From NCBI GenBank assembly GCA_003223835.1, contig QHWR01000084.1, positions 1 to 38,743 on the forward strand: 38,743 nucleotides of DNA, in the 5' to 3' direction. A program made the translations under genes and the position numbers. A model generated the notes under the pieces. It searched no databases, had not been told where the DNA came from, and saw nothing but the letters and a program-made list of their open reading frames with translations. Each line of letters opens with the position of its first letter. The stretch's first letter is position 1. Shown here piece after piece: positions 15,323-18,735 of this stretch. The DNA is from Acidobacteriota bacterium. Lineage in GTDB: Bacteria; Acidobacteriota; Vicinamibacteria; Vicinamibacterales; 2-12-FULL-66-21.

Positions 15323-16321
15323 ATGGAGTCCATCTCGATCGTGATTCCGGCGCTGAATGGGATGGAGACGCTGCCTCGCGTGTTCGACGCGCTGGCCGCG
15401 CAGGACCTCGCCGCGGACATCGTCGTCGTCGACTCCGGGTCGCGGGACGGCACGGTGGAGCACGCGCGCGGACACGGCGCGACCGTGATCGAAATCGCAC
15501 CAGGCACCTTCAACCACGGCGCGACGCGGAACCTCGGCATCGCGCATGCGGCCGGCGCGCTGGTCGTGCTGCTGGTGCAGGATGCCGTGCCGGCGTCGAG
15601 CGGCTGGCTGCGAGCCCTGACGGCGCCATTCGCGATGGACTCTGCCGTCGCGGGCACATTTGGCCGGCAGATTCCCTGGCCGGCTGCGCGCTCGCTGGCG
15701 CGGTGGAGCGGGCGCGACTGGATCGCGGCGGGCGCGATTGCGCGTCTTTCAGGCCCGCTGAGCGCCGGTGAATTCGATCGTTTGAGTCCGGATGAGCGGC
15801 ATCGCGCCTGCGTCTTCGACAACGTGTGTTCGTGCGTACGGCGCGACATCTGGTCGCGGCATCCGTTCAGGGAGACGCCGATCGCCGAAGATCTCGAGTG
15901 GGGACGCGAGGTCCTGCTCGCGGGCTTCCGAATCGCCTACGCGCCCGAGGCGGGCGTCTGGCATTCCCACGAACGCGGCGTCCGTGATGAATGGCGACGG
16001 ACGCGCGACGTGCATCGCCGTTTGTTCGAGCTGTTCGGCCTCACGACGATTCCGTCGCGGCGCGCGCTTTTGCGGTCGGTTGCTTCCGCCGTGATTACTC
16101 ACGTTCGGATTGCCTCCCGGGATCGGTCGCTCACGGCCATCGCGCGCGCGGCCGCGCTGGGTGTGGCGTGGCCCGTCGGTCAATACGTCGGGGCACGACA
16201 AGCGCGGCGCGCGCTGCAGGCGGCACGCTTGCACGCAGCACCAAAGCACCCCGCACCAAAAGTACCCAGCACCATTTCCCAGCACCCAGCCCCCAGCACA
16301 GACACGCGGAGGCCTCGCTGA
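15323..16321 (+). CDS. GT2-family glycosyltransferase (rhamnosyltransferase-like) with repeat-derived C-terminal tail
   Basis: ISIVIPALNGMETLPRVFDALAAQDLAADIVVVDSGSRDGTVEHA; FNHGATRNLGIAHA; tail HAAPKHPAPKVPSTISQHPAPSTDTRRPR. Confidence 0.88.
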   Translation: MESISIVIPALNGMETLPRVFDALAAQDLAADIVVVDSGSRDGTVEHARGHGATVIEIAPGTFNHGATRNLGIAHAAGALVVLLVQDAVPASSGWLRALTAPFAMDSAVAGTFGRQIPWPAARSLARWSGRDWIAAGAIARLSGPLSAGEFDRLSPDERHRACVFDNVCSCVRRDIWSRHPFRETPIAEDLEWGREVLLAGFRIAYAPEAGVWHSHERGVRDEWRRTRDVHRRLFELFGLTTIPSRRALLRSVASAVITHVRIASRDRSLTAIARAAALGVAWPVGQYVGARQARRALQAARLHAAPKHPAPKVPSTISQHPAPSTDTRRPR

Positions 16322-18735
16322 TGCGCCTCCTCCTCGCCGTCCATGGCTACCCGCCCTCGTCATGCGGTGGGACGGAGACGTACGTCGCCGACCTCGCGCA
16401 GGCGCTGGCCCGGCAACCGGGCGTCGACGTCGCGGTGATGGCGCGCGAAGGCGATCCGCTGCGCGCGGAGCTGGCGGTGCGGACGGAGCGCCGCGGCGCG
16501 GTCGATGTGCACTTCATCAACAACACGTTCCAGGTCTGCGAGTCCTTCGAAGACAGCTACCGCAACCCGGCGCTGCAGGAGGTCGCGTCGGCCCTGATCG
16601 ACGAGATCGCACCCGACGTCGCGCATATTCACCATCTCACGGGGCTGTCGACCGGTCTCGTCGACGAGTTCCGCCGGCGCGCGATCCCCGTCGTGATGAC
16701 GTTGAATGACTACTGGCTGATCTGCCATCGGGGCCAGCTGCTCGACCGCGACGGCCGGCGATGTGACGCGCCTTGTGCGGGTGAACGAGATCTTCCGCCT
16801 GAAGGCGGAAGCCACGAATTTCCTTCCAAATCTAACTCTTGTGGCTTCCGCCTTCAGGCGGAAGATCTGGCCGGCTGCGGGCGCTGCATCCCTGCAGCGG
16901 CGCTCGCGCCGGCCGTCGCGTGGCGCGCGGGCCGCGGGCTTCGGCGGATTCCGGTGGCGCGGACGCTCGTGTCCCTTGCCGAACGGGCCGTCACCGCGAT
17001 CGACGCCGGCGGGCGCTCGCGCGTGGCGACGATCGCGCGGGCCAGGCACATGCGCGACGTCTGCGCTGGCGCCAATCTCCTGATCGCGCCGTCGCGCACG
17101 CTCGAAGAGCGATATCTCGCGTTCGGCGCGCCGCGCGAACGGCTCATATGGTGCGACCAGGGCATCGATGTCTCGCTCTTCAATCGACGACGCGGCGTTG
17201 AAGCCGGCCCACTCCGACTCGCGTTCGCGGGCAGCCTGATCTCTTCGAAGGCGCCGCACGTCCTGCTCGACGCCGTGTCGCGCCTGCCGCCCGGATCGGC
17301 GACGGTCGATCTCATCGGTGCCACCGCGCCCTATCACGGCGACGTCGAATACTCGCGCGCGCTGGCGGCGCGTCTCGGCGCTCCATTCATTCGTCACACC
17401 GGCGCCGTTCCACACGAGCGGGTCGGCGAGATGCTCGCCGATGTCGATCTCCTGGTCGTGCCGTCGGTCTGGATCGAAAACGCGCCGTTCGTCATCCGCG
17501 AAGCCTTCGCCGCCGGCGTTCCCGTCGTTGCCTCCCGTCTCGGCGGAATGGCGGAGATGGTCCGCGACGGCGTCAACGGGTTGCTGTTCGAGCCCGGCAG
17601 TCCGGATGCGCTCGCGACGGTGCTGCGCCGCGTCATCGATGAACCGGCCCTGCTGGCCGCGCTGCGCGCCGGGATCCGGCCGGTCATGACCATCGACGAG
17701 GACGCCGCGCAGTTGGTGGCGTTGTACAAGGCAGAGCGCCTGCGGCCCGAGCGAGACGCGGAGTCGCCGGCCCCTCGGGAGCTTCAGGGTCGCCGTGAGC
17801 AATGCGCGGTCGAGTGCCCGCGGCCGGAGGTCAGCGACAGGCCGTTCGCGGTGGCCGCGATCGTGCTCAATTACAGGACGCCGGAGCAGACGTGGCTCGC
17901 GGTGCGCTCGCTTCAACCGAGCCCAACGATCGACCGCATCATCGTCGTGGACAACGGATCGAACGACGGGTCGGAATCGGAACTTCGCCGCACGCTGAAC
18001 GACGTCGACGTCCTGCAGACCGGCGCGAACGTTGGATTCCCGGCTGGCGTGAATGCCGGCATCCGGCGCGCGCTCGACGCCGGCGCGGGCGCGGTGCTTC
18101 TCGTGAACAGCGACGTCGTGCTCCCGCCGGAGACCGCGGGCCTGCTGTCCGCGGCGCTCGCCGGAGATTCCTCCATCGGCATCGCCGCGCCCGTCGTGCT
18201 GTCCCGCGCGGAACCGGACGTCATCGCGTCCGCCGGCATTCGTTTCTTCGCGGCGAGCGGGCGCATGCGGCACCGCGCCGCCGGCCATCGTCTTGCCGCC
18301 GCCGGGCCGTCGGGCGTGCACCGCGTGGACGCGGTGAGCGGCTGCGCGATGTTGATCCGGCGCGAAGTATTCGGTCGCATCGGCCTGTTCGACGAGCCCT
18401 GCTTCTTCTCGTTCGAGGACGTGGACTTCTGTTTGCGCGCCCGCGCCGCGGGATTCGAAACCGTCTGCGTGACGGGCGCGGTCGCGTATCACGAAGGGGG
18501 CGCGACGATGGGCAAGCGGACGCCGCGTCGCGTCTATTACGGGGTGCGCAACCACCTGCGCGTGGCGGGTCGCGCGGCGCCGCGCGGCGCGGTCGCGTCG
18601 GCAACGCGCGCGGCCGCGATCGTCGCGTTCAACGTCGCGTACGTCGCTCTGTCACCGGAGGTGCCGTTCCTGGCGGGCGTCGCCGCGGTCGGCCGCGGGA
18701 CGTTCGATCACCTCCGAGGCCGGTACGGCGGCTGA
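16321..18735 (+). CDS. Two-domain glycosyltransferase (N-terminal GT4, C-terminal GT2) carrying an in-frame palindromic insertion
   Basis: GT4: MRLLLAVHGYPPSSCGGTETYVADLAQAL...ENAPFVIREAFAAGVPVVASRLGGMAEMV; GT2: AAIVLNYRTPEQTWLAVRSLQ...IIVVDNGSNDGS...FFSFEDVDFCLRARAAGFETV. ATG overlaps the previous stop. Confidence 0.9.
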   Translation: MRLLLAVHGYPPSSCGGTETYVADLAQALARQPGVDVAVMAREGDPLRAELAVRTERRGAVDVHFINNTFQVCESFEDSYRNPALQEVASALIDEIAPDVAHIHHLTGLSTGLVDEFRRRAIPVVMTLNDYWLICHRGQLLDRDGRRCDAPCAGERDLPPEGGSHEFPSKSNSCGFRLQAEDLAGCGRCIPAAALAPAVAWRAGRGLRRIPVARTLVSLAERAVTAIDAGGRSRVATIARARHMRDVCAGANLLIAPSRTLEERYLAFGAPRERLIWCDQGIDVSLFNRRRGVEAGPLRLAFAGSLISSKAPHVLLDAVSRLPPGSATVDLIGATAPYHGDVEYSRALAARLGAPFIRHTGAVPHERVGEMLADVDLLVVPSVWIENAPFVIREAFAAGVPVVASRLGGMAEMVRDGVNGLLFEPGSPDALATVLRRVIDEPALLAALRAGIRPVMTIDEDAAQLVALYKAERLRPERDAESPAPRELQGRREQCAVECPRPEVSDRPFAVAAIVLNYRTPEQTWLAVRSLQPSPTIDRIIVVDNGSNDGSESELRRTLNDVDVLQTGANVGFPAGVNAGIRRALDAGAGAVLLVNSDVVLPPETAGLLSAALAGDSSIGIAAPVVLSRAEPDVIASAGIRFFAASGRMRHRAAGHRLAAAGPSGVHRVDAVSGCAMLIRREVFGRIGLFDEPCFFSFEDVDFCLRARAAGFETVCVTGAVAYHEGGATMGKRTPRRVYYGVRNHLRVAGRAAPRGAVASATRAAAIVAFNVAYVALSPEVPFLAGVAAVGRGTFDHLRGRYGG
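16788..16868. repeat. REPIN-like element: two inverted 28-bp arms, each an internal palindrome, with a 25-nt spacer
   Basis: Left arm AGATCTTCCGCCTGAAGGCGGAAGCCAC (16788-16815); right arm GTGGCTTCCGCCTTCAGGCGGAAGATCT (16841-16868) is its exact reverse complement. Each arm contains CTTCCGCCT-GA/TC-AGGCGGAAG. Confidence 0.9.

Follow-up and report, generated by a model that had tools for sequence, protein, structure and literature searches.

The 81-nt segment at positions 16,788-16,868 of the window (the whole stretch of 38,743 nucleotides analyzed here) is, with a probability that we put at about 0.87, a REPIN: two inverted GTGG-tagged REPs and a short spacer, stemming from a large family whose spread by a RAYT we infer, and tolerated in a loop of a glycosyltransferase. 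The family, of which we found no description in the literature searched, is new among REPs/REPINs, and many of its copies lie in frame inside genes, an event of a type already known elsewhere.

Anatomy of the element and its host gene

An inverted-repeat search of the window revealed two 28-nt arms (16,788-16,815 and 16,841-16,868) that are 100% complementary and separated by a 25-nt spacer (16,816-16,840). Together with the host reading frame, which remains open across the 81 nt, this is what the earlier note had read from the letters. Each arm forms its own hairpin, with a 9-bp stem and a 2-nt loop (CTTCCGCCT-TC-AGGCGGAAG), and corresponds to a REP preceded by a guide-like tetranucleotide, GTGG-CTTCCGCCTTCAGGCGGAAG. 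The left REP, whose core GTGGCTTCCGCCTTCAGGCGGAAG matched the pattern scan with 0 mismatches, occupies 16,792-16,815 on the reverse strand with its GTGG at 16,812-16,815; the right one, with the same core and recovered by both the repeat search and the pattern scan, occupies 16,841-16,864 on the forward strand with its GTGG at 16,841-16,844. The tags point inward, and such pairs are the tail-tail dimers of Di Nocera et al. (2013, PMC3733652), who also described GTGG as a variant of GTAG. Folding of the 81 nt gave -37 kcal/mol as DNA (z -11.8), and the hairpin envisaged for the RNA was predicted at -59.6 (z -12.6); in both cases 0 of 200 shuffles equaled the value. The number of arm-pattern matches expected in a shuffled window is 0, and Rfam gave no match in the window.

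The element lies within a forward-strand gene (16,321-18,735) that its ORF and Pfam matches designate as a GT4-GT2 fusion glycosyltransferase, the protein displaying Glyco_transf_4 (residues 16-133), Glycos_transf_1 (residues 296-448) and Glycos_transf_2 domains. Residues ~157-183, within ERDLPPEGGSHEFPSKSNSCGFRLQAEDL, are REP-derived. In the DNA alignment with the closest orthologue, from the related genome G003 (protein 58-59% identical), a 90-nt gap falls at the element site, from which the true insert would measure about 81-90 nt; its boundary is not exact because this nearest orthologue is only ~60% identical. The segment is absent from the G003 protein and from nine further aligned homologues. 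It falls between conserved cysteines, where loop length varies among homologues anyway. In an AlphaFold2 model built with 11 sequences, the mean pLDDT is 80 and residues 151-185 score below 50, the insert thus being modelled as a disordered loop in an otherwise confident glycosyltransferase. The orthologue from G016 (L186) carries in the same loop a repetitive NPVNLANPVNVANLANP, which is an unrelated loop expansion.

A dispersed family in the same genome

A 21-nt arm pattern, allowing up to 2 mismatches, has 193 matches in the genome that carries the element (G000, a 5.75-Mb draft in 400 contigs, 93% complete) and 0 for the reversed-pattern control, which makes the arm, as supposed earlier, a member of a multi-copy family. 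The element statistics given below rest on 133 sampled copies of this genome rather than on all of them, and on the 74 sampled elements into which copies within 200 nt were clustered. Read tag-first, 127/133 copies have GTGG directly before CTTCCGCCTTCAGGCGGAAG and 3/133 have GTAG. Stem changes are compensatory, with a C-G pair replaced by G-C in 11/133 copies and a G-C pair by A-T in 2/133, and the hairpin is kept. Fifty of the 74 elements are tag-inward pairs, the others being single (19), tag-outward (3) or triple (2), and the spacers of the sampled pairs range from 13 to 172 nt.

These features are those of GTAG-class REPs: a tetranucleotide at the hairpin foot (GTGG/GTAG), a palindrome of 20-40 nt with a conserved stem (9 bp, with a 2-nt loop), a high and dispersed copy number often in inverted pairs, and a mostly extragenic location, since ~50/74 elements have no in-frame intragenic placement by coding score and by-eye reading. 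Architecture, tags, inverted pairs and compensatory stem changes all agree with the REPIN-like nature first proposed for the segment. The CGTC tag found at one end of Rickettsia palindromic elements (RPE/CGTC) is not observed, the tag being GTGG or GTAG. The 3' flank of the REPs displays a weak ATC preference only, and no clear CC-versus-CT difference exists there between GTGG and GTAG copies. The core length is 2 mod 3 in 12/18 intragenic pairs (p 0.005) versus 14/32 elsewhere (Fisher p 0.15), a bias that is suggestive only. Near a contig end (L181, G000:C177, 35-144), three REPs follow each other as direct tandem repeats with a 43-nt period, possibly belonging to a REP array at which the assembly was interrupted.

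Copies in frame inside other genes

About a third of the sampled elements (~24/74) are located in frame inside genes. Scoring of codon usage, with loci of the same genome as the training set, gave 17 elements in which one open frame continues from one flank to the other. By-eye reading of the remaining cases added 8, and L049, which has REP-derived sequence for a flank, was taken out; these placements are approximate. Intragenic insertions that break the frame are harder to recognize with the coding score, and their apparent rarity does not correspond to any measured number. A single Pfam match spans the insert in an amino-acid permease (L011), a peptidase S58 (L014), a FAD-binding protein (L026), a beta-lactamase-family protein (L075) and an AMP-binding enzyme (L112). 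In L018 a peptidase M19 match begins just after the element, and a Lhr-type helicase ORF (L012) harbors two elements. Insertion into coding DNA, as the earlier note had it, is thus well founded, both on the aligned orthologues devoid of the segment and on these many other in-frame copies.

The other copies are intergenic, often located exactly where the upstream gene ends, and several of them provide this gene with its TGA stop (SSA*RRKP). The strings FRLKAEAT and ASAFRRK, noticed previously in other frames of the element, are indeed present and recur in many frames of the genome; the peptide strings were not encountered in the literature searched. In L050, near position 1499, repeated SWSPQN units adjoin an in-frame REP, apparently through tandem expansion of the REP flank.

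Related genomes and shared inserts

Tagged REPs with at most 2 mismatches occur in 15 of 193 genomes of the class. The REP-rich relatives are G003, G009 and G061, with 123, 101 and 142 matches, respectively; the copies of G009 have the same hairpin and mostly a GTAG tag. Among the matches listed in a scan of public sequences, the exact repeat is found in three Acidobacteria MAGs and one MAG labelled Acidimicrobiia, in keeping with the suggestion of an Acidobacteriota family. Empty-site DNA alignments at intergenic loci involved sequences too diverged to be read.

The linker of arginyl-tRNA synthetase (ArgRS) contains a REP-derived segment in G000, in G009 and, in degenerate form, in G003, and this segment is absent from 16 other relatives aligned. 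A single insertion before the split of the two genera is a simpler reading than repeated use of the site. G003 (L123) and G009 (L268) also share the site of a REP in a glycosyltransferase/TPR protein; this insert of a membrane protein reads FRLKAEAT in one and the diverged FRRKADAT...FSFQAEAT in the other. The only two REP copies of G004 with at most 2 mismatches (L163, G004:C325, at 1714 and 2254) lie ~520 nt apart. They were considered as a REPtron, which was rejected, both being in frame in one ORF that, named from its translation only, would be PEP-synthase/pyruvate-phosphate-dikinase-like.

RAYT genes

Mobilization by a RAYT, as proposed in the earlier note, found no direct confirmation. 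Searches with Pfam Y1_Tnp, with a single protein and with a profile, covering either the whole order or the REP-rich genomes, yielded no RAYT linked to the REP and detected no Y1_Tnp/RAYT gene in the G000 draft. Even at an E-value of 10, nothing in G000, G061 or G004 matched a RAYT, and among the loci examined no RAYT is flanked by the exact REP of the element (GTRGCTTCCGCCTTCAGGCGGAAG). G003 (99% complete) possesses two distant RAYTs, none of the relevant clade, and G009 possesses one distant RAYT and one of the relevant clade, the latter being linked to another REP family. In L133 / L116 (G009:C70, 485-609), a RAYT has on its flanks a second REP family, GTAGGCCGGGTCTTCAGACCCGGC, with the same design and a different stem.

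RAYTs are common in the same order, with an invariant PDHxH (HUH) motif and a conserved tyrosine, and many of them are flanked by GTAG/GTGG-tagged hairpins with CT-TC-AG or CT-TT-AG loops, for example GTGGTGTCCGCCTTCAGGCGGAC in L162. From these REPs of the same architecture lying beside RAYTs of the order, we infer, indirectly and by analogy, the link of our family to a RAYT. A RAYT located between REP arrays may drop out of short-read assemblies. Alternatively, loss of the RAYT from the host is possible because REP arrays around other RAYTs did assemble; REPINs are also present in some E. coli genomes that have no RAYT (PMC8049555).

Discussion

We propose that the element would be non-autonomous and would have spread in single-stranded form, copied by a HUH transposase (RAYT/TnpA_REP) that would recognize the GTRG tag and the hairpin, and that one REPIN would have landed in the glycosyltransferase, in a loop whose length varies. 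Insertions that keep the frame would, in tolerant loops, survive selection and be translated as probably unstructured linkers; those that break it would mostly be purged.

The closest parallel is with the GTAG-class REPs and REPINs of the TnpA_REP (RAYT) system (Bertels & Rainey 2011, PMC3116915; PMC3733652; PMC8266576), which share the tag at the hairpin foot, the 9-bp stem, the 2-nt loop, and the high copy number of dispersed inverted dimers, whose spacer mostly measures 20-100 nt. However, the Acidobacteriota family differs from them by a host in which no cognate RAYT was found, by the predominance of tail-tail pairs where most GTAG families follow a head-head rule, and by the ~1/3 of its sampled elements that are intragenic and in frame. 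Such in-frame intragenic REPs are themselves already published (Di Nocera 2013, PMC3733652): in Opitutus terrae and other species, in-frame dimers encode 20-30 residues, and one O. terrae family has GTGG as its predominant tag (PMC3733652). Those REPs belong to another phylum and another sequence family, whereas the Acidobacteriota ArgRS insert could be followed across two genera. Rickettsia palindromic elements are likewise palindromic repeats lying in frame in functional genes, but RPE-4/-6 are of the CGTC class without transposase association (PMC3733652), while the family described here is GTRG-tagged.

The view of the insert as a translatable peptide cassette, put forward in the earlier note, holds as far as in-frame insertion is concerned, but is overstated beyond that: preservation of the frame is what survives selection, and intragenic REPs had been published before. 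One could nevertheless imagine a REPIN population without a resident RAYT whose intragenic copies, as in ArgRS, have become long-lived selected segments, a selfish hairpin thereby acting as a source of linkers; we give this a small chance. Also improbable to us is the wider idea that the inserts in general are selected cassettes, useful linkers maintained for protein function. It could draw on the ArgRS insert retained in G000, G009 and (degenerate) G003, and on the glycosyltransferase/TPR insert that G003 and G009 both keep at one site. However, these peptides vary in length and sequence between genera and occupy loops that are variable anyway, the glycosyltransferase insert is modelled as disordered, and neutral persistence accounts equally well for the retention. 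The peptide cassettes are best read as survivors of tolerated insertion and not as a demonstrated function.

We find it just as improbable that a small palindromic element independent of any RAYT, of the RPE/CGTC or MITE type and owing its movement to a different transposase or to replication slippage, merely resembles a REPIN. This would fit with the failure to find a RAYT linked to the REP, and with four REP-bearing genomes that have no RAYT of the relevant clade or no RAYT at all. Yet the tag at the base of the hairpin, GTGG/GTAG, is what characterizes the GTAG class, the REPs lying beside RAYTs in the same order share this tag and have CT-TC-AG / CT-TT-AG loops, and the rickettsial RPE-4/-6 have CGTC instead of GTAG (PMC3733652). 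Finally, a native, conserved Cys-rich loop that is palindromic by coincidence, to which the position between conserved cysteines could point, is refuted by the orthologues devoid of the segment and by the ~190 occurrences of the same DNA in unrelated genes and intergenic sites.

The REPIN reading extends in-frame intragenic REPINs to an order of Acidobacteriota, with one genome in which many unrelated enzymes carry a hairpin repeat in frame. The ArgRS insert common to two genera provides a case for asking whether repeat-derived peptides are tolerated or used, and the missing RAYT makes this family a test case for the persistence or decay of REPINs after loss of their transposase.
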